Positions 10,982 to 19,972 of a stretch of 34,222 nt of DNA are shown piece after piece. The stretch is from Nitrospirota bacterium (GTDB lineage Bacteria > Nitrospirota > Leptospirillia > Leptospirillales > Leptospirillaceae). The notes under the pieces are model-generated. The model was not told where the DNA came from and did no database searches. It saw nothing but the letters and a program-made list of their open reading frames with translations. Made by a program: the position numbers and the translations under genes. Within the stretch, counting starts at the first letter, position 1, and every line of letters begins with the position of its first letter. The stretch is taken from contig JAJYYA010000008.1 in NCBI GenBank assembly GCA_021801345.1, positions 1-34,222 of the forward strand, read 5' to 3'.

Positions 10982-12481
10982 ATGCTCGAAGACATTCTCG
11001 CCCGATCCCCCATCCCCTTTCTCCTCGCAGGACGCAGGGAGACAGGAGCACTCCCCCCGCACACGATCGAGAGTTTTGTACGGCCGATCCCCTCTCCCGT
11101 CGGATCGGCGACTCCGGAGGCCTCCTCCTGGCAGGTCGCCCGGGCGGGAACGGGAGAGGTACTTCTTGCGCTCGAGGCCGTCGCCCGGGGACAGGAGAGC
11201 CTTACCCGTCTCCCTCCTCACCGGAGACGGATCATTCTCGAGGAGACGGCCCGAGGCCTTGAAGCCCACAGGACACTGTTTGCCCGGCTCATCACCGCCG
11301 AGGTGGGGAAGCCCGCCTCAGCCGCCCTCTTCGAGGTCGAAAGGGCCATCGCCACATTCAGGGTCGCGGCAGATCTTGCCGCCACATTCGGACACCACTT
11401 TCAGCCGGGCAATCTTGTCCCACAGGGAGCGGGCATGCTCGGTCTCGTCGACAGAGTCTCAGCCGGCCCCGTCCTCGCCATCACTCCCTACAACTTCCCC
11501 TTGAACCTCCTCGTCCACAAGGTGGCTCCGGCCATCGCCACGGGAAGCGCACTCGTCGTCAAGCCTGCCCCCCGGGGGATGACGACGGCTCTTGCCCTGG
11601 GAGAGATTCTTCTTTCGGCGGGTCTCCCTCCCGAAGCCCTCTCCATCCTCCCCTGCGACATTGCCGACACCGAACGCCTCATCGACCATCCCGCCCTTCC
11701 GGTCGTCTCCTTTACCGGTTCGGCGACGGTAGGGTGGCGAATCCGGGAGCGGGTCCCCCGGAAGAAGGTTCTTCTGGAGCTGGGGGGAACGGCTGCGGTC
11801 ATGGTTGCCGAGGACGGGATGAGCCCTGAACTGTGCGATCGTCTGATCTCTGGAGCTTTCGCCTATTCGGGGCAAATCTGCATCTCAATCCAGAGGATTC
11901 TTGTGGCCCGCCCACTCTACGAACCCCTCCGTGCCCTCCTTTCAGAAAAGCTTCGGGAGCTTGCGTCGGACGGGCGCGTGGGGCCCCCCGACGCTCCCCG
12001 GACTCTCGTGGGACCGCTCATCAGCCGCTCCCACGCCGATGCGGTCAGGATTAAGATCGAAGAGGCCGTTTTGGCAGGCGCGGAGCTTCTTTCTCCGATT
12101 CGGCAGGAAGGGGCCCTCCTTTACCCGGTTCTGTTGACAAAAACGGAGGCCGACTGGCCAATCGAACAGGAGGAGGTCTTTGGTCCCGTCGCGACGCTGA
12201 CACCCTTCGACAGCCCCGAGGAGGCGATCCGTCGGATCAATCGTTCCCGCTTCGGGATTCAGGCAGGAATCTTCACCCGCCAGATCGACCAGGCGATCGG
12301 ATGGGCAAGGTCGATCGAAGTCGGCGGAGTCCTGATCAATGAAATTCCGACTTACAGACTCGACCACTGGCCCTACGGAGGCGTCAAGGAGTCGGGAAGC
12401 GGATTCGAGGGAATTCCCTATGCAATGGAGGAGATGAGCCGGCCACGCCTTCTCGCCATCCGGCTTCCGACGGGAGGATAG
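10982..12481 (+). CDS. aldehyde dehydrogenase family protein
   Basis: A 499-residue NAD(P)-dependent aldehyde dehydrogenase of standard length. Hallmarks are TPYNFPLN (Asn171 stabilises the thiohemiacetal), VVKPAPRG for cofactor binding, FTGSATVG at the Rossmann loop, the general base Glu266 in LLELGGT, the catalytic Cys300 in SGQICISIQR, and EEVFGPVATL and GGVKESGSG near the end. The closest style is lactaldehyde/succinate-semialdehyde or NADP-dependent glyceraldehyde-3-phosphate dehydrogenases. The substrate cannot be fixed by eye. An AAAGG site precedes the ATG. It is a single gene, convergent with the fbp cluster. Confidence 0.92.
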   Translation: MLEDILARSPIPFLLAGRRETGALPPHTIESFVRPIPSPVGSATPEASSWQVARAGTGEVLLALEAVARGQESLTRLPPHRRRIILEETARGLEAHRTLFARLITAEVGKPASAALFEVERAIATFRVAADLAATFGHHFQPGNLVPQGAGMLGLVDRVSAGPVLAITPYNFPLNLLVHKVAPAIATGSALVVKPAPRGMTTALALGEILLSAGLPPEALSILPCDIADTERLIDHPALPVVSFTGSATVGWRIRERVPRKKVLLELGGTAAVMVAEDGMSPELCDRLISGAFAYSGQICISIQRILVARPLYEPLRALLSEKLRELASDGRVGPPDAPRTLVGPLISRSHADAVRIKIEEAVLAGAELLSPIRQEGALLYPVLLTKTEADWPIEQEEVFGPVATLTPFDSPEEAIRRINRSRFGIQAGIFTRQIDQAIGWARSIEVGGVLINEIPTYRLDHWPYGGVKESGSGFEGIPYAMEEMSRPRLLAIRLPTGG

Positions 12482-12530: not shown

Positions 12531-12561
12531 GCTCAGGCCAGAGCTCAGGCCAGAGCTCAGG
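12531..12561. repeat. 12-bp tandem repeat across the fbp stop codon
   Basis: The unit GCTCAGGCCAGA is repeated 2.6 times without error (12531, 12543, 12555). Its TCA supplies the fbp TGA. Because the unit is 12 bp, each copy provides an in-phase stop, so copy-number change would alter only the 3' untranslated region. Confidence 0.85.
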
Positions 12562-13555
12562 AAGGCGCGGCCACGATGCGAAGATAGCGTTCCACCAGAG
12601 GGCGAGAGCCCACGACGAGAGGGACCCGCTGGTGGATGTGGACCGGCGGAACGTCGAGAATGGGGCGGTGGCCGTCGACCGCCTCCCCTCCTGCCGCGCG
12701 AGCGATAAGGGCCATGGGGATGGCCTCGTAGAGAAGGCGGAGCTTGCCCTCGGGATGTCCCCCCGAGCCCCCCTTAGGCATATCTCCCGGATAGAGGTAG
12801 ATCCCGCCCTTCTTCAGGTTCCGGTGAAAGTCCATAACGAGTGCGCCCACATACCGGGCGCTGTAAGGAGCCCCGGAAAGGGACCGCAGATACCGCTGGT
12901 CCTCCTCTCTCCACCGGGAGGCGTTCCCTGCGTTCAGACTCACGATATCGCCTCCCCCCCCCGGAAAGCGCAGCGGCCCGGGAAGAGGAAGGAACTCGCC
13001 CCGGGCCGGATCGAGGGCGAACTGCCTCACCTCCCGGCCGAACGTGACGACAAGAAGGGTCGAGACGCTGTAGAGAACATAGGCGGAAAAGACGGGCGAC
13101 AAAACCGAGCGAAGCACCGCGGCCGAAGGATCGGAGGGCTCCCCCGCGGAAGGACGGAATACACAGAAGATCGAGCCGACCGGCCCAGAAACGGCGAGGT
13201 TGGAGGAGCCGTCGAGGGGATCCATGGCGACATGAAAGAGACCGGAGCTCCCGTTTAAAATCTCGGGCGACTCCCGCTCCTCCGAGACAAGGCACCGGAC
13301 GGCTCCGGTCTCCCGGATCGTTCGGGTAAAGACCTCCTGGGCAATCTCGTCGAAGGCCTGGACCTCCTCCCCTTGCACGTTCACCGCACCGGCGGCACCG
13401 GTGAGTCCCTTGAGCGGTCCCAAGGCCAGAAGTCCGGCCATCTCGCGCCCCCCGGCGGCCAAGGCCCAAAGAACCTTCCTCGCTCCTTCCCGCTCGGGGG
13501 CCGAAAGCCCCGCCTCTTTGTCCGGAAGTTCGTCCAGACCCACTCTCTCGTCCAT
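12557..13555 (-). CDS. fbp: fructose-1,6-bisphosphatase, class I
   Basis: A 332-residue enzyme, the canonical length, that removes the 1-phosphate of fructose 1,6-bisphosphate in gluconeogenesis and the Calvin or related cycles. Metal and phosphate motifs are visible: SEE near residue 91, MDPLDGSSN (Asp112, Asp115), SLNAGN near the middle, KKGGIYLYPGD, KLRLLYEAIPMALI with the catalytic-site Glu, and a C-terminal VPPVHIHQRVPLVVGS. The frame opens 19 codons earlier, but the ATG at 13555 has GAGAGGAG six bases upstream, so I use it. It is the last gene of an eight-gene minus-strand cluster, 43 nt after the zinc-ribbon gene. Confidence 0.93.
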   Translation of the reverse strand: MDERVGLDELPDKEAGLSAPEREGARKVLWALAAGGREMAGLLALGPLKGLTGAAGAVNVQGEEVQAFDEIAQEVFTRTIRETGAVRCLVSEERESPEILNGSSGLFHVAMDPLDGSSNLAVSGPVGSIFCVFRPSAGEPSDPSAAVLRSVLSPVFSAYVLYSVSTLLVVTFGREVRQFALDPARGEFLPLPGPLRFPGGGGDIVSLNAGNASRWREEDQRYLRSLSGAPYSARYVGALVMDFHRNLKKGGIYLYPGDMPKGGSGGHPEGKLRLLYEAIPMALIARAAGGEAVDGHRPILDVPPVHIHQRVPLVVGSRPLVERYLRIVAAPS

Positions 13556-13598
13556 CGTGATCTCCTCTCCCATCGCTTCGCCCCCTTTGCCCTCTCCC

Positions 13599-14009
13599 TC
13601 AACCCGCCCCATTGCCGAGCCCGCGATCCTCTGCCCAGGTGTCGAGCTCCATCAAAAGATGGGCCACCTCCCGGGGAACGAGGATCACGTGGGGGCTTCG
13701 CCCCTTTTTCACCGTCTGGTCGATCGCGGCAATCCGTTCTCTGGCCCGGACAAAGGTCGTCCGGTCGTCAAGACAGGAGGTTTGCCCTGCCCGAAGCTTC
13801 GCGAACTCCTCCCGTATCGCCCGCACGTCCCGCTGAAAGTCCTTTTCCCGGGAGCACTCCTCGCAATACCATCGGGGCGACATGTTGCCGTAGGCCGAAA
13901 GCCTGTCGTAGGGGCGGTCAAAGAAATCATGGCCCAAAGAGAGTTTGTATAGGACAGCGTTCGTCCTCCCGCAGGAGTCGCAGCAGCCGTTCTGGTCAGG
14001 GGGTTCCAT
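13599..14009 (-). CDS. small Cys4 zinc-ribbon protein, unknown function
   Basis: A 136-residue protein. The N-terminus carries CCDSCGRTN and, about 40 residues later, RWYCEECSREKDF, together a likely zinc-binding Cys4 ribbon. A charged helical region follows (DFQRDVRAIREEFAKL and TTFVRARERIAAIDQTVKKG). I do not recognise the family. The ATG at 14009 has AAGGA seven bases upstream and begins one base after the stop of the preceding gene, so the much longer upstream open frame is not used. Translational coupling to its neighbours suggests a regulatory or accessory role within the cluster. Confidence 0.7.
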   Translation of the reverse strand: MEPPDQNGCCDSCGRTNAVLYKLSLGHDFFDRPYDRLSAYGNMSPRWYCEECSREKDFQRDVRAIREEFAKLRAGQTSCLDDRTTFVRARERIAAIDQTVKKGRSPHVILVPREVAHLLMELDTWAEDRGLGNGAG

Positions 14010-14010
14010 A

Positions 14011-14502
14011 TCAGATTCCTTTAAAGGGGCCTGGAGGGCTCCCCTCCGGAGAGCCCTCCGTCGTTCGGCGCAAAAGGCCGGCCAAGTGGGAAAGCGTCCG
14101 GTCGAAGGTCGTGAGATAAAAGTTTCGGCCAAGGTCGGAGGATTCGCCGGGACGGAGATATCCAAGAAAATATTTGTTCGGGCGATTTAAAAGGAGCTTT
14201 GCCCGGAGGATCCGGAAGAGCTCCGAGATCTCCCCCTCCCGGTCGGGATGGAGCACCCTCATAGTCGGAGCGACCGTCTCCTCCCATCGAGAGAGGATCT
14301 CCTCAAGCCTGTCCATCTCCCGAAGATCCTCCTCCTCCGGCGAGAAGCACCACTCGTTTTTCCCGTCCTCCATCGCCACGGAGACGACCGGAACACGCAG
14401 AACAAGCCTCCGCGTCCCCTCCTTCAGGCCGGACAGAAGACCCTCTGGCTCTTCCCCCACGATCCCCTCCCCGATTCTTCCCTCAACCGACAGACAGGTC
14501 AC
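14011..14502 (-). CDS. conserved-looking protein of unknown function
   Basis: A 163-residue soluble protein that I cannot assign. The first half is strand-rich and acidic (RRLVLRVPVVSVAMEDGKNEWCF). The second is helical (EEEDLREMDRLEEILSRWEE and SELFRILRAKLLLNRPNKYF) and ends in a region that loops into RNFYLTTFDRTLSHLAGLL. The first start is GTG 14502 with a modest GGGA site. An internal GTG (about 14457), preceded by GGGGAGGGG, is a serious alternative. The gene sits between the deacetylase-family gene and the zinc-ribbon gene with almost no spacer, and codon bias matches them. Confidence 0.6.
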   Translation of the reverse strand: MTCLSVEGRIGEGIVGEEPEGLLSGLKEGTRRLVLRVPVVSVAMEDGKNEWCFSPEEEDLREMDRLEEILSRWEETVAPTMRVLHPDREGEISELFRILRAKLLLNRPNKYFLGYLRPGESSDLGRNFYLTTFDRTLSHLAGLLRRTTEGSPEGSPPGPFKGI

Positions 14503-14540
14503 CCCGATCCCACGAAGACACCCGGAGCCCGCCCCTTATT

Positions 14541-15488
14541 CTAGCCCTCGAACCACCCCGAGAGAAAGGCCCGGGAGGAGTCCCGAAGAGCCTGAAGATT
14601 GTAGCCGCCCTCAAGAAAGGCCGCACAAAGCCCGGGGGCTGTCTCCGAAAGCCAGCGCCCGATACTGTGGTAGCTCTCCTCCGTGAGGGCCATATCTCCC
14701 AGAGGATCGTCCCGATGGGCGTCGAAGCCGGCACTTACCAATACGGTGTGCGGAGCAAAAAACGCGAAGCGGGGGCGGACAACCTCCTCGAAGATCTCCC
14801 GGTAGTCATCGTCATCCGTCCCCGCGCGGAGGGGGATATCGAGGACCCCCTCTCCTTGTGCCCCCTCGCGATTGTCGCGACCGGAACCGGTCCCGGGATA
14901 GAAGGGATAGCGATGGGTGCTCACGAAAAGAATCTTGTCCCGACGGGGAAGGCGGGCGACGATCTCGGCCGTGCCGTTTCCATGATGGACGTCAAAGTCG
15001 AAGATGGCGACCCGTTCTTCCGGGTACGTCTCCTGCCGCGCCGCCAGGAGGATGGCCAGGGGATTGATCGCACAAAATCCCATCCCTCCCCCCGAGTGGG
15101 CATGATGGCCCGGGGGTCTCATGGCGAGGAAGCACTTCCGCCCTTTTCCGGGGGGTGTCGCCAAAAGGGATCGAACCGCCCCGAGCGTCTCCCGAAGAGC
15201 CACGACGGTGGCTCCCCCCACTTGCGTGTCGGAGTCGAGAGGCCGGGACGGGGAGGCGGGGGAGAGGCCTTCGAGGAGGTCCACGTACGATCCGTCGTGA
15301 ACGACGCGGGCCAGAGTGAGGTCCGACTCGGGCGGCGCCTCGAGGAAGACGGCCTTTTTTCGGCCGACGATCTCCCTTCCCGCATCGATCACCGCGGAAA
15401 GGCGGGCCGGGGACTCCGGATGGCCCGGCCCACTGTCGTGGGAAAGTCCCGCATATCCCGCAAAGAACTCGGGAAGGGAGGAGATCAC
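14541..15488 (-). CDS. histone-deacetylase-family amidohydrolase
   Basis: A 315-residue zinc-dependent deacetylase of the HDAC/AcuC/acetylpolyamine amidohydrolase superfamily. Signature blocks are SGPGHPESPARL, RPPGHHA (His128-His129 catalytic pair), IFDFDVHHGNGT (zinc ligands Asp166 and His168), SAGFDAHRDDPLG (third ligand Asp256) and LEGGYN with the catalytic tyrosine. In bacteria such enzymes remove acetyl groups from lysines or polyamines; the target here is unknown. The GTG start at 15488 overlaps the radical-SAM stop as GTGA, with AAAGG seven bases upstream. Position between a radical-SAM enzyme and a zinc-ribbon gene is unusual. Confidence 0.92.
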   Translation of the reverse strand: MISSLPEFFAGYAGLSHDSGPGHPESPARLSAVIDAGREIVGRKKAVFLEAPPESDLTLARVVHDGSYVDLLEGLSPASPSRPLDSDTQVGGATVVALRETLGAVRSLLATPPGKGRKCFLAMRPPGHHAHSGGGMGFCAINPLAILLAARQETYPEERVAIFDFDVHHGNGTAEIVARLPRRDKILFVSTHRYPFYPGTGSGRDNREGAQGEGVLDIPLRAGTDDDDYREIFEEVVRPRFAFFAPHTVLVSAGFDAHRDDPLGDMALTEESYHSIGRWLSETAPGLCAAFLEGGYNLQALRDSSRAFLSGWFEG

Positions 15489-16399
15489 GAAAAGACCTTT
15501 ACCGGAAGAGAGAGGCGCAGGCTCGCCTCCTTAGCCCATTCGAGAAGGCGGGAGTCCTCGACGGCCCGCACACCGGAAAGAGCGGGAGGGCGCGCAACCC
15601 CATAAAGATGCCACTCCCGGATCTTTCCTCCCGTCTCGCACCACGTCGCAACCTGCGCGAGCAGAGGGTCCCAGAAGGCTCTGTCGGAGACAAAGGCTCC
15701 GGGAGAGCCCGGTTCGCCGAAGTCGAGCACCATCGTCTGAAGCGTCACCGGAAGATCCCTGACAATCTCCGAAAGTCCTTCCTTCATGCGGGCAAGGGGG
15801 ATATGCGAGCGATCGATGCGGGAGTAGAACGGGTCCGTCGCCGCATCGAACTTGAGCCAGATCTCTCCGGGCCCTGCCTGGAGAAAGATCTTTTCGGTCC
15901 GGCGGCGCAGTTCCTCTCCGAAAAGGCCCGTCCCATTGGTGATCAGTCGAAGGATCGGGGAAGAAGAGGCGGGAAAACGTTCCGAAACGAATCGCCTGAC
16001 CTCCTCCGCAACCTCGGAGAAGACGGGGGAAAGGGTCGGCTCTCCGTCGCCAGAAAAGGCAATGTCGCGCACCGACCGAAGAGAATCCGGAAGAGCGTCA
16101 AAGGGGGGCGTGGAAAAAAACGCCCCTTCGACAACGGAGTCGAAGAGAAGGGAGAGCTCCTCGAGGACAAGTCCGGGGAGATCCCGGAGGGCGACCGGGG
16201 AAGGGGCGGGAGGAGATTTCCGGTCGACCTGACAATAGATACAGTCGAAGTTGCATCCCCGGTCGAGGTTCAGATTGACCCCGACGGAGATCCCCCCGGC
16301 CCGGCGCGAAAGAACGGGATAGACCGAGACAAAGGATCTCTTTCCAAGACGAAAAAGACGGCTGTGATCGGACTGCAGCTCCTTGACCGTGGCCGTCAC
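15485..16399 (-). CDS. radical SAM enzyme, COG0731-like
   Basis: A 304-residue radical S-adenosylmethionine enzyme. The cluster-binding motif is RGCNFDCIYCQVDR (Cys49, Cys53, Cys56), preceded by VGVNLNLD. The SAM-binding GDGEPTL and later LRLITNGTG and IWLKFDAATDPFYSRID follow the COG0731 plan (wyosine-synthase-related radical SAM). I take GTG 16399, which overlaps the PP-loop stop in GTGA and has a GAGGTG site. The ATG at 16420 would overlap by 25 nt. It is translationally coupled to a PP-loop ATPase, which suggests a joint role in RNA or cofactor modification, but the bacterial COG0731 substrate is generally not defined. Confidence 0.85.
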   Translation of the reverse strand: MTATVKELQSDHSRLFRLGKRSFVSVYPVLSRRAGGISVGVNLNLDRGCNFDCIYCQVDRKSPPAPSPVALRDLPGLVLEELSLLFDSVVEGAFFSTPPFDALPDSLRSVRDIAFSGDGEPTLSPVFSEVAEEVRRFVSERFPASSSPILRLITNGTGLFGEELRRRTEKIFLQAGPGEIWLKFDAATDPFYSRIDRSHIPLARMKEGLSEIVRDLPVTLQTMVLDFGEPGSPGAFVSDRAFWDPLLAQVATWCETGGKIREWHLYGVARPPALSGVRAVEDSRLLEWAKEASLRLSLPVKVFS

Positions 16400-17430
16400 T
16401 GACGCCACCTCGCCATCCATTCAGGCTTTTCCATAAGATGCCGGAGGCGGGGAGGCAGGGCGGGAAGAAGGTGGGGACGCTCCCCCGCCTCCGAGAGGAT
16501 CCGGACGGGAAGCGGGCCCTCCGGAACCTTGCCCTGACCAAAGGCATGGAGGGCGCCACGGGCAAGCTCTTCCATACGGGAAAAGGGCAGGGCCCCTTCC
16601 GGAAGAACGCAGACCAAAGGCCCCTCGAAACCGTCGGGGCGAAAGGCCACACCGGCTCCGCGAATATGGGACTCGAGGTTTCGGTTGTCCTCCTGGGAGC
16701 GCCCCACGACAACCCATTCTCCTTCCTCGAAGCGAAAATGCCGGCCGTACCTGAGGATTGCCGCCATAGCCTCCCGCCGTCCTCCCAGGCTCCCGGCCTC
16801 CTGCCAGTCGAGGCGAACAAAGTCCCCCACCCGGTCGGCAAAGTTGGTGTCAGTCAGAAGACACCCTCCCGCGGGAGAGGGCACGACCGAAAGACCCAGC
16901 TTTTTGGCCAGTTCCAGCTGGGGCTTCCGGGAACGTCCCGCCCAGCCGAACAGGCGTCTCCGGTCGACCGTCCCGTCTTTTTCCGGCAGAGTCTCGGGAA
17001 GGAGTCGAGCCGAGAGTGGTCGGAGAACGAGGCCCTCCATCCCGGAGTCCTGGTCGATCGCCACGATCGAGCGCCTCTTTTGGGACATGGGACGCTGGCC
17101 CAAAACCTCTCCTGTCACGAGGAAGGAGGCGCCCACCTCCTCCATGAAGGCCCGGCCCATGCGAAACATGTGAATGCGGCAGTCGACACAAGGATTCATG
17201 GCGCTCCCGTAGCCGTACCGGGGGTGGGCCAGCATCTCCAGAAAGGCCTCTCCCTTGGGGCGGGTCACCAGCGGAACGTCGATCTCCCGAGCCATGGTCT
17301 CGGCCATCGAGTCGCACCCGAACGGGCTCTCGAGATGGAGCGCCACAAGATCGACCCCCATCTGCCGCAGAAGAAGACCGGACAGGGAGGAGTCGAGACC
17401 GCCGGAGAGCAGAAGGACTCCCTTAGCCAT
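16396..17430 (-). CDS. PP-loop ATP pyrophosphatase, ThiI/MnmA-like thiolase candidate
   Basis: A 344-residue protein. LLLSGGLDSSLS at residues 6-17 is the PP-loop that binds and activates ATP for adenylation. NPCVDC (Cys81, Cys84) and AGGCLLTD (Cys190) are placed like the metal- or sulfur-binding cysteines of tRNA-thiolating enzymes of the ThiI/TtuA/MnmA group. RGSS-free C-terminal residues 220-340 form an extra domain I cannot name. The likely role is ATP-dependent sulfur insertion into RNA or a cofactor. The ATG at 17430 overlaps the preceding stop by 8 nt and has only a weak ribosome site, so it depends on coupling. The radical-SAM gene follows with a GTGA overlap. Confidence 0.82.
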   Translation of the reverse strand: MAKGVLLLSGGLDSSLSGLLLRQMGVDLVALHLESPFGCDSMAETMAREIDVPLVTRPKGEAFLEMLAHPRYGYGSAMNPCVDCRIHMFRMGRAFMEEVGASFLVTGEVLGQRPMSQKRRSIVAIDQDSGMEGLVLRPLSARLLPETLPEKDGTVDRRRLFGWAGRSRKPQLELAKKLGLSVVPSPAGGCLLTDTNFADRVGDFVRLDWQEAGSLGGRREAMAAILRYGRHFRFEEGEWVVVGRSQEDNRNLESHIRGAGVAFRPDGFEGPLVCVLPEGALPFSRMEELARGALHAFGQGKVPEGPLPVRILSEAGERPHLLPALPPRLRHLMEKPEWMARWRQ

Positions 17431-17731
17431 CGGAGGCGGTATCCATGATCACCTCGTGGATCTCGAGGACATTGGGGCCGGAAAACATCTCCCGGGGCGG
17501 ACGTTCCTTGTGGGCCTCTCGGAAGGAGTCGGAGTGGGTCCAGGCCTCGAAGGCCTCCTTCGACTCCCAGAAGGTCATGACGGAATAATACTCGGAGTCG
17601 ACCGGCCTGAGGATCAGATTCCGGATGAACCCCGGGAACCCGTCGATCCTCCCCTTGCGGTTTTTGAATCGCTCCTCGAAGGCCTGTTCGTGGCCTGAGG
17701 CCACGCGTATCCTGTTGGCAACGACAAACAT
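17423..17731 (-). CDS. ABM-domain (antibiotic biosynthesis monooxygenase-like) protein
   Basis: A 102-residue dimeric alpha-beta barrel candidate. MFVVANRIRVASGHEQAFEERF, GFPGFIRNLILRPVDSEYYSVMTFWESKEAFEAW and the closing SGPNVLEIHEVI are the typical order of the ABM fold, as in IsdG/HmoB-like haem-degrading enzymes. The haem ligands cannot be confirmed by eye, so the function may be oxygenase or simple binding. The ATG at 17731 is chosen for its AAAGGA site six bases upstream; an earlier start five codons upstream lacks one. The stop of the preceding gene lies one base before this ATG. Confidence 0.8.
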   Translation of the reverse strand: MFVVANRIRVASGHEQAFEERFKNRKGRIDGFPGFIRNLILRPVDSEYYSVMTFWESKEAFEAWTHSDSFREAHKERPPREMFSGPNVLEIHEVIMDTASDG

Positions 17732-17732
17732 G

Positions 17733-18191
17733 TCACATCCTTTCAAAGTGGGCTTGTGATTCGATCCGTTCTCGGGGAATTCGGAGAGGATCGACCCGAC
17801 CGGTTTCGTTGCCCCAAACGGGAGGACGGCAGGACTTGTCCCTCCAAACCCTCCGCCCCCTTGCGAACAACCTCTCTCGCTGGAAACAAAGTCGCCTGTG
17901 ATTGCTCCCTGTCCCTTTATCCACCCACCATAGGGATTCGGGCTCCTCTATCCAGAGACCGCCGAAGTATTCCTTTCCATCGTGTTCCACTGTCAGAATC
18001 AGATGTTCGGGATAGAGGGAATCTTCGTCCACTTTTTTGACATCAAGGAGAATGCCCGCTTCTCCTCGAGGAGTTGAACCGCAAGATCCGCACACTCCGC
18101 CCCATTCCGGAGGCCATGTGGGAACCCCGTGGTATCGCAACTTCGGATGGTCCCGGAAACGATACTTCCTGTCGATCGGCGCCTTCGTCAA
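17733..18191 (-). CDS. conserved hypothetical protein with TTG start
   Basis: A 152-residue protein. The central part, FRDHPKLRYHGVPTWPPEWG then GEAGILLDVKKV, then LILTVEHDGKEYFGGLWIEE, resembles a small conserved hypothetical family in which HP-x-L-x-x-x-GxPxWPPxW is followed by a strand pair. The second half is Arg-rich and less conserved-looking. I choose the TTG at 18191 because GGGGAGGA lies six bases upstream; the frame remains open to another TTG at 18305 with no good site. Its stop lies inside the ribosome site of the ABM gene, which supports an operon. No function is known to me. Confidence 0.55.
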   Translation of the reverse strand: MTKAPIDRKYRFRDHPKLRYHGVPTWPPEWGGVCGSCGSTPRGEAGILLDVKKVDEDSLYPEHLILTVEHDGKEYFGGLWIEEPESLWWVDKGTGSNHRRLCFQRERLFARGRRVWRDKSCRPPVWGNETGRVDPLRIPRERIESQAHFERM

Positions 18192-18367
18192 CCTACGTCC
18201 TCCCCTCAAAAAATCCGACGCGTTTCGAGAGACTTCCTCGCCCACGCGCACCTTCTGTCCGGGCTTTGCCGCACCCGGATCGCTGCCGGGAAGAGAGCCC
18301 CCCAAGTCTCTATTCTATCAGAGAGGCGCCGGCCGGAAAAACGGAAATCGTCCGAAGGGAAAAGCGG

Positions 18368-19186
18368 TCAGGCGTGCCGGCCCGGGAGAGTCGGAAGGTA
18401 GCTGACAGACGGGGAGAGCTGCTTCGGCTGCGGAAAAAGGCGCATGAAAAGGGTCACCTCCTCCGGCATCTCGGTCGAAACGGGAATCTCGAGCCGGCGG
18501 AGCTCCTCGACGGTCAGAGGGTAGTCGTGGGTGAAGTGCCCCGTGGCAAGGAGCTCGGCCAGACTCTTCGCATTCTCCTCGGGCATGCGTTTGGACAAAA
18601 GAGCGGTCACGCCGAGAAAAAGCTGTCGAATCGCCTTCTCTGCCACATCGGCCAGGATCAGGGTCCGGTCGTCCATCTCGTCGTGGTTTTTTCTCTCGAG
18701 GACCCGCAGGATCGAGGCGGCCGGATACTCTCCGATCTGGGGATCCACCGGGCCCAAGACAGCATTCTCGTCCATGACGATCTGCGAGGCGGCAAGGGCG
18801 ATAAGCGTGCCTCCGCTCATCGCGAAGTGGGGAACGAAGACCGTCACGGGAGCCTTCCGGTTGGCCAGGGCGTGCGCGATCTGAAGCGAGGCCAGAACGA
18901 GCCCCCCCGGCGAGTGGATGATGAGGTCGATGGGGGTTTTGGGATCGGTCAGCTTGATCGCCCGCAGGATCTCCTCGGAGTCCTCCACGTTGATGTATCG
19001 GAGAATCGGAAAGCCGAGAAGGTTCATGGTCTCCTGACGATGGACAAGAGCAATCGCCCGGGTTCCCCGGGATCGCTCGAGGTTCCGGAGGGCTTGCGCC
19101 CGCGCATATTCGAGCATCCGGCGAGAGATCACCGGCTGAAGCATCATCACGAGAAAAAAGATCCACAGGACCGAACCAATCTGCAT
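18368..19186 (-). CDS. membrane-anchored serine protease, SDH/ClpP-crotonase fold
   Basis: A 272-residue protein with one N-terminal membrane helix (residues 4-20, GSVLWIFFLVMMLQPVI). The rest matches the serine dehydrogenase proteinase family (SDH_sah, ClpP/SppA-like): RQETMNLLGFPILRYINVED, DLIIHSPGG (oxyanion loop), PHFAMSGGTLIAL with nucleophile Ser124, MDENAVLGPVDPQIG and KAIRQLFLGV. It probably cleaves membrane or misfolded substrates at the cytoplasmic face. The ATG at 19186 has AAGGAG five bases upstream. It is divergent from an outer-membrane protein gene at 19256 and lies 176 bp upstream of the hypothetical cluster, so it may not share that transcript. Confidence 0.88.
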   Translation of the reverse strand: MQIGSVLWIFFLVMMLQPVISRRMLEYARAQALRNLERSRGTRAIALVHRQETMNLLGFPILRYINVEDSEEILRAIKLTDPKTPIDLIIHSPGGLVLASLQIAHALANRKAPVTVFVPHFAMSGGTLIALAASQIVMDENAVLGPVDPQIGEYPAASILRVLERKNHDEMDDRTLILADVAEKAIRQLFLGVTALLSKRMPEENAKSLAELLATGHFTHDYPLTVEELRRLEIPVSTEMPEEVTLFMRLFPQPKQLSPSVSYLPTLPGRHA

Positions 19187-19255
19187 GTCATCTCCTTGCG
19201 GGAGCAGGTCCCCGGGGCTGCGGTTTGACATTTTCGAAAAGGGGGAGGGAGAATA

Positions 19256-19972
19256 GTGACCATGACACATCACCCTTCTCTTCGGAAACAGCGTGGACCG
19301 TTTGGCGTTTGGGCGTTTCTTCTGGCCCTGTTGCTCCTCTGGCCGCAAGCTCCGAATGCGCATGCCGCAGACTCTGCCTTCTCGTGGCAGAGTCTCTCCT
19401 TCGACGGGGGGGTTGCCCCCCTCCTGTCCGGCCCCATCAATGGAACGATCGACGGTACGCCCGTCCCCTCGAAAAGCCTCGTCGACCTCGAAAATACGGG
19501 ACTCGACTTCCATCTCCGCTGGAGTTCCCAGATCGCTTCCCACCTGGGGCTCCGGTTCTCCGTGGGCTACATGGCCTTTGCTCCGAGCATGGGGTTCCAC
19601 GGTCTGTCGGCGCTTCCCCTCACGGCGGGGGCCACCGTCCCCCTGATCGACCCCCGGGACGCCACCCGGGGAGTGATCCCCTATCTGGCGGCCGATATCG
19701 GGCCGTCCTTCAACACCCTCTCCGCGAACTCAGGCAATGCCGGGTCCGTCTCGTTGACCGTCGATGCCGGCATCGGGGCCCTCTACGCACTCTCCCGACA
19801 GTTTTCGGTCTACGGAGAGGTCCTCCCCACCCTTATCCAAAGTCCCGTCTCCTCCCAGAACGTGGCAACAGGCACCAATGTGAGCTCCGGGATGATGTGG
19901 ACCCTTCCGGTCTTTCTGGGCGTCACCTACAACTACGGGATCCCGGCAAAAGGCGAGACCTCCTCACCGTAA
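19256..19972 (+). CDS. small outer-membrane beta-barrel protein
   Basis: A 238-residue exported protein. The signal peptide (FGVWAFLLALLLLWPQ, cleavage after PNAHA) is followed by amphipathic strand-like segments with alternating hydrophobic residues: LDFHLRWSSQIASHLGLRFSVGYMAF, IPYLAADIGPSF, SVSLTVDAGIGALYALSRQFSVYGEVLP and TLPVFLGVTYNYG. This pattern suits an 8-stranded OmpA/OmpX-like barrel. The function is unknown. GTG 19256 is favoured because GGAGGGAG sits at the right distance; ATG 19262 is an alternative. The gene diverges from the SDH-type protease with a 69-bp shared regulatory gap. Confidence 0.75.
   Translation: MTMTHHPSLRKQRGPFGVWAFLLALLLLWPQAPNAHAADSAFSWQSLSFDGGVAPLLSGPINGTIDGTPVPSKSLVDLENTGLDFHLRWSSQIASHLGLRFSVGYMAFAPSMGFHGLSALPLTAGATVPLIDPRDATRGVIPYLAADIGPSFNTLSANSGNAGSVSLTVDAGIGALYALSRQFSVYGEVLPTLIQSPVSSQNVATGTNVSSGMMWTLPVFLGVTYNYGIPAKGETSSP

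Follow-up and report, generated by a model that had tools for sequence, protein, structure and literature searches.

PP-loop sulfurtransferases and fructose-1,6-bisphosphatases (FBPases) are among the described systems closest to the locus reported here. In LarE of T. maritima, a CXXC-C set of cysteines combined with an SGGxDS loop binds a catalytic [4Fe-4S] cluster, in a mechanism likened to that of TtuA (PMC9283937), and in mammalian FBPases the residue Glu280 is a ligand of metal 1 (PMC3785478, PMC5639204). Our study concerns a 34,222-nucleotide stretch of DNA (the window) from a Nitrospirota bacterium of the family Leptospirillaceae (assembly GCA_021801345.1, contig JAJYYA010000008.1), which spans an entire contig of a 2.6 Mb genome and contains a run of seven closely packed minus-strand genes (17731-12557). 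These encode, in order, an ABM protein, a PP-loop protein, a radical S-adenosylmethionine (radical SAM) protein, a histone deacetylase (HDAC)-family protein, a mostly helical protein, a zinc-ribbon protein and an FBPase homologue. Our analysis suggests, with a probability of about 0.75, that the run consists of two independent operon-like modules that lie next to each other in a single genus, module A (ABM to radical SAM) and module B (HDAC to FBPase homologue), for each of which we propose a role; gene content, the limits of the modules, motifs and distribution are observed, and the chemistry, the substrates, the co-transcription of the modules and their joining as opposed to splitting are what we infer.

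Conservation of the two modules

Module A recurs in most genera of the family and module B in every genus examined, and the two lie end to end only in the genus of the window. Their genes in the window are:

17423..17731, minus strand: ABM protein (module A), PF03992, with an IsdG/HmuQ-like haem-degrading monooxygenase fold
16396..17430, minus strand: PP-loop ATPase with NFACT-R_2 domain (module A), with SGGLDS loop and cysteines C81, C84 and C190
15485..16420, minus strand: radical SAM protein (module A), with one CxxxCxxC cluster motif (C56, C60, C63)
14541..15488, minus strand: HDAC-family deacetylase (module B), PF00850 at 223 bits, HDAC6/HDAH-like
14011..14502, minus strand: mostly helical protein (module B), start uncertain (GTG at 14502 or 14460)
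13599..14009, minus strand: zinc-ribbon protein (module B), with C10, C13, C49 and C52 invariant
12557..13612, minus strand: class I FBPase homologue (module B), PF00316/PF18913, start uncertain (ATG at 13612 or 13573)

The order from the ABM gene to the FBPase gene and its tight packing were intact in eight other genomes of the genus, so the cluster is not a product of chance; in the same eight genomes the run has an SDH-type protease gene on its upstream side, and an aldehyde dehydrogenase gene converges on it from downstream. Elsewhere in the family, the ABM-PP-loop-radical SAM and HDAC-helical protein-zinc ribbon-FBPase groups were separate loci in all genera examined. The latter order was found in five genomes of four other genera, again with a converging aldehyde dehydrogenase gene wherever the fetched stretch shows it, and in one closed genome (G015; 2,559,538 bp) the modules lie at about 376 kb and about 2,079 kb, some 0.86 Mb apart around the circle. 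Since the modules are separate in all the other genera examined, joining in the genus of the window is a simpler reading than splitting, and their adjacency there is no evidence of a shared pathway. In G015 a TnpB-like gene (IS200/IS605-type) lies directly upstream of the HDAC gene (L235:5674-6534) and may be a trace of rearrangement near module B.

All the open reading frames predicted by the initial annotation are found where it placed them, on the minus strand, and the tight junctions that it described are borne out by overlaps and 1-nt gaps. The ABM and PP-loop genes overlap by 8 nt, the PP-loop and radical SAM genes by 25 nt, and for the radical SAM and HDAC genes the overlap is 4 nt here and in several relatives, the longest open reading frame giving another figure in others. 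A gap of 38 nt (about 80 with the start suggested by homologues) separates the HDAC gene from that of the helical protein, which is followed after 1 nt by the zinc-ribbon gene; the latter overlaps the FBPase gene by 14 nt, or, with the later ATG at 13573 as the start, precedes it by about 25 nt. Three further features border the modules:

17733..18191, minus strand: hyp, a doubtful open reading frame of 152 aa with a TTG start, between the protease gene and the ABM gene (1-nt gap to the latter)
10982..12481, plus strand: aldehyde dehydrogenase gene, converging on module B, a neighbourhood kept family-wide
18368..19600, minus strand: SDH-type Clp-fold serine protease gene, which probably starts near 19186 and lies upstream of module A in the window's genus and one other genus

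Seven of the eight genes that the initial annotation had counted as one cluster keep their order in the eight other genomes, and the eighth, hyp, occurs at this place in this genome only. Nothing corresponds to hyp at the equivalent position in any relative inspected, partial homologues being present elsewhere in two genomes of the family, along with one very weak third match. Its GC content at third codon positions is 0.58, compared with 0.69-0.83 for the other seven genes, and it has little codon-position GC signal. Because of its TTG start, its weak codon-position bias and its absence from that place in relatives, we treat hyp as a doubtful insertion and read the cluster as seven genes plus hyp. 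The interval between the protease and ABM genes (window 17733-18365) holds about 540 bp of extra sequence carrying hyp, and the corresponding gaps in other genomes of the genus are 42-110 nt. Domain-family searches of the window proteins gave no family assignment for hyp, the helical protein or the zinc-ribbon protein. At the other end of the run, a terminator-like hairpin with a T tail lies 3' of the FBPase gene (12542-12523), such sites being no commoner here than in shuffles. A 12-nt tandem repeat (CTCTGGCCTGAG) at 12531-12555, directly 3' of the FBPase stop codon, overlaps this hairpin.

A PP-loop/NFACT-R protein and its radical SAM neighbour

The PP-loop protein consists of a PP-loop ATPase followed by a C-terminal, RNA-binding NFACT-R domain, as sequence and AlphaFold model (pLDDT 92) agree, and NFACT-R_2 was present in all 44 of 44 sequences. 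Proteins of this type occur in several bacterial phyla and some archaea, and an alignment of 100 of them, drawn from both, shows the SGGxDS motif (S9-S14) in 99, with a gap in the remaining one. The cysteines C81, C84 and C190 (a CXXC and one distant cysteine) are invariant in 100/100, while the other two of the five, C39 and C274, vary. A Foldseek search with the model returned matches including MnmA, QueC, LarE, ThiI and TtuA, with a probability of 1.0 and E about 1e-6. A sulfur gene lies beside the PP-loop gene, on the same strand and within 300 nt, in 29 of the 100 loci; the neighbours found in this way are LarE (15 loci), MiaB (5), cysteine synthase (4), MoeB (3) and cysteine desulfurase (2).

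In its SGGxDS loop, its CXXC and distant cysteine, its fold and its sulfur-gene neighbourhoods, the protein resembles the [4Fe-4S] PP-loop sulfurtransferases (TtuA, T. maritima LarE and TtcA). It differs from TtuA and LarE in having a C-terminal NFACT-R domain in place of their partners, and in forming a sequence family of its own. By sequence its PP-loop domain is closest to ThiI and MnmA, but domain searches gave no match to a THUMP domain and detected no rhodanese domain, and its scores fall far below both equivalog cut-offs (35 bits against 264.5 for ThiI; 21 against 284 for MnmA). The C-terminal domain is like the NFACT-R domain of RqcH, fused here to a PP-loop ATPase instead of the rest of RqcH. 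We found no characterised PP-loop/NFACT-R member, and nothing on PP-loop/NFACT-R or COG0731 proteins, in the literature sources searched; the Aravind group reportedly predicted in 2014 that NFACT-R/PP-loop fusions modify RNA. Motifs, domains, fold matches and sulfur-gene neighbours make it probable that the protein is an Fe-S sulfurtransferase acting on RNA. It would most likely adenylylate a carbonyl by means of its SGGLDS loop, hold a [4Fe-4S] cluster on C81, C84 and C190, and pass sulfide bound at the free iron onto its substrate, which is probably an RNA base held in place by the NFACT-R domain.

The two genes on either side encode proteins of other kinds. The haem-degrading monooxygenases IsdG and HmuQ have an Asn/Trp/His triad. 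The ABM protein, with its ABM fold (PF03992, 69 bits) and with N6, W64 and H74 at the triad positions, identical in all aligned family members, resembles these enzymes; it differs from them in lying below the equivalog cut-off (77 bits with the HmuQ model against the NCBIfam value of 130) and in adjoining a PP-loop enzyme, which it does only in this family. The radical SAM protein has a radical SAM core with a CxxxCxxC motif and a COG0731 resemblance in common with TYW1 (4-demethylwyosine synthase), for which a second cluster is described (PMC5352715). Across 21 sequences, however, C56, C60 and C63 are its only conserved cysteines, none being left for a second cluster, and the protein should make a 5'-deoxyadenosyl radical with one cluster. 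A wyosine-type role was rejected, given the missing second-cluster cysteines and a score of 12.6 bits with the TYW1 model (cut-off 318). A sequence search against known structures found no relative, its only matches, coiled-coil designs with E about 0.06, being taken as spurious.

Several observations separate the radical SAM protein from the PP-loop protein. Among 246 genomes of the phylum, a PP-loop orthologue is present in 133, the radical SAM protein in 15 and both in 6, compared with 8.1 expected by chance (one-sided Fisher p 0.92, a test that ignores relatedness); with the window's family removed, 3 are observed and 5.9 expected. The phylum-wide pattern is one of families carrying either the PP-loop or the radical SAM protein alone, although in one genome counted as having only the latter (G017) its gene is at a contig end, so that the lack of the PP-loop gene there is uncertain. 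A radical SAM match above 110 bits was found in 1/48 PP-bearing genomes, mostly of other phyla, and neither radical SAM nor ABM homologues were found in the fetched flanks of about 100 PP-loop loci outside the family. In several other genomes of the phylum, the radical SAM gene is near a class II ribonucleotide reductase gene. Taken together, the absence of co-occurrence beyond chance, the 1/48 count, the empty flanks and the proximity to ribonucleotide reductase make a general PP-loop/radical SAM pathway unlikely, and the radical SAM protein would most likely be a single-cluster enzyme acting in something separate from the PP-loop protein. The thio-type pathway that the initial annotation had suggested for the pair holds for the PP-loop protein, in view of its CXXC-C cysteines, sulfur-gene neighbours and fold matches, and fails for the radical SAM protein as a general partner, since the two do not co-occur. 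The one match among the 48 genomes is in Rhodopirellula (G317:C8:266780-267616; L248), at 347 bits, weaker COG0731-type relatives occurring in others. An adenosylcobalamin-dependent ribonucleotide reductase gene adjoins the radical SAM gene, on the same strand, in a further family of the phylum (L181, L183 and L184; also L179).

A link confined to the family is possible because the 25-nt overlap of the PP-loop and radical SAM genes is conserved in several of its genera. The two proteins could then belong to a single modification pathway peculiar to the family, in which, for instance, an RNA base or cofactor would first be thiolated and then undergo a radical step, and the ABM protein would contribute iron or redox chemistry. 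The adjacency of all three genes in most genera of the family fits such a pathway, as does one genome of genus g4 that carries the PP-loop/radical SAM pair twice (G016:C53 and G016:C88; L040 and L242), one copy being at a contig end. We nevertheless consider it unlikely, since elsewhere each protein occurs without the other and the radical SAM gene lies beside ribonucleotide reductase in several genomes. Far less probable is the broader model of the initial annotation, in which the PP-loop, radical SAM and HDAC genes form a unit that ties thio-modification to acetylation control of FBPase and of carbon flow. The continuous overlapping gene order in the genus agrees with it, but in no other genus of the family examined do the HDAC-FBPase genes share a locus with the PP-loop/radical SAM genes; the annotation had held that lack of conservation of the trio in relatives would refute it, and the trio is intact within the genus and in separate places outside it, where the model is contradicted. 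The hypothesis of acetylation control could rest on the conserved deacetylase-FBPase linkage, not on the PP-loop and radical SAM genes. For the reading that we prefer, two independent modules with the roles proposed here, some points weigh on the other side. The conserved 25-nt overlap is one of them. The preference for joining over splitting comes from a comparison of layouts, not from a tree. Whole-chain TM-scores of the PP-loop model to solved structures are 0.3-0.4, as expected if one domain of the protein matches, and its LarE neighbours could equally mean a cofactor or small-molecule substrate.

A deacetylase linked to an altered FBPase homologue

The deacetylase of module B is the only Hist_deacetyl protein in the genome. 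The window protein has the PPGHH, DxHHG, GFDxH and EGGY motifs, which are found in all family members; the zinc ligands and the catalytic His and Tyr are retained and its relatives in the PDB are of the HDAC6/HDAH type, so that by its motifs it appears catalytically intact. It differs from other HDAC6/HDAH-type deacetylases in its constant operon-like linkage to an FBPase homologue. The helical protein has conserved EWCF.P and RI.R.K..(L/F)N..N..F.GY motifs and 14 homologues, always between the HDAC and zinc-ribbon genes. Its AlphaFold model is mostly helical (pLDDT 82), and a fold search gave no match below E 0.1, matches to FAT-like four-helix proteins being not significant. Four cysteines are invariant in the zinc-ribbon protein, which also has homologues in two further families of the phylum; in one genome (G029) its gene is on a different contig from those of HDAC and FBPase. 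A Pfam search with these two families found nothing credible, and the titles and abstracts of the Leptospirillum deacetylase literature contain nothing on the module B operon.

The FBPase homologue is the only PF00316 (class I) protein in the genome, where searches aimed at the GlpX and PF01950 types of FBPase found neither. The name 'fbp' given to its gene by the initial annotation agrees with its class I fold, its SEE (at 110) and DPLDGSSN (at 131) motifs and its substrate-binding motifs, and needs qualifying in one respect: Glu280 (pig numbering) aligns without gaps to R305, this position being Arg, Lys or Gln in all 14 family members examined and Glu in four canonical FBPases of the phylum. 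The other metal ligands, counterparts of Glu97/98, Asp118 and Asp121, are kept. Either the metal site tolerates the change or the protein may have taken on a changed role. Another family of the phylum (L247, G025:C89) has a PF01950-type FBPase, at 540 bits, but its class I matches do not exceed the curated cut-off, which makes the type of FBPase patchy in the phylum. Leptospirillum ferriphilum, presumably a member of the window's family, is reported to be without phosphofructokinase and to use the pathway by preference in the direction of sugars (PMC2607301), and an FBPase should therefore be needed. Module B would most likely serve the FBPase step of gluconeogenesis by means of a metal site with one carboxylate fewer, the deacetylase and the two small proteins acting on or with the FBPase homologue.

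How far the roles of these proteins have moved can be argued in two directions. The FBPase homologue may no longer be an FBPase at all, having become with the loss of Glu280 a regulatory pseudo-enzyme or an enzyme for another sugar phosphate. The family-wide replacement of a residue that binds metal 1 in the mammalian enzymes (PMC3785478, PMC5639204) and a score of 249 bits against the NCBIfam equivalog cut-off of 368 both point that way, but the remaining ligands and the substrate-binding motifs are those of an FBPase and the genome has yielded no GlpX or PF01950 enzyme in its stead, and we hold this change of role as a possibility only. It is also conceivable, though doubtful, that the FBPase homologue, or a partner of it, is a direct substrate of the HDAC and that the removal of acetyl groups sets FBPase activity. 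The two genes are linked in every genus examined, with the same two genes between them, and the catalytic motifs of the HDAC are intact; against this, bacterial HDAC-family enzymes often act on small molecules, and domain-family searches identified no acetyltransferase among the cluster genes.

Implications for the family

The two modules show that tight, overlapping packing of genes can mislead, since they are contiguous in one genus and separate in the rest of the family. They also provide two leads: a PP-loop/NFACT-R protein that has the characteristic features of an Fe-S RNA sulfurtransferase, and a deacetylase-FBPase operon present throughout the family, in which the FBPase is without a metal ligand used by the mammalian enzymes. 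We suggest tentatively that gluconeogenesis in this family may run through the Glu280-replaced class I enzyme as its only FBPase, encoded in an operon of its own together with a deacetylase and two small, hitherto undescribed proteins that would assemble or control it.

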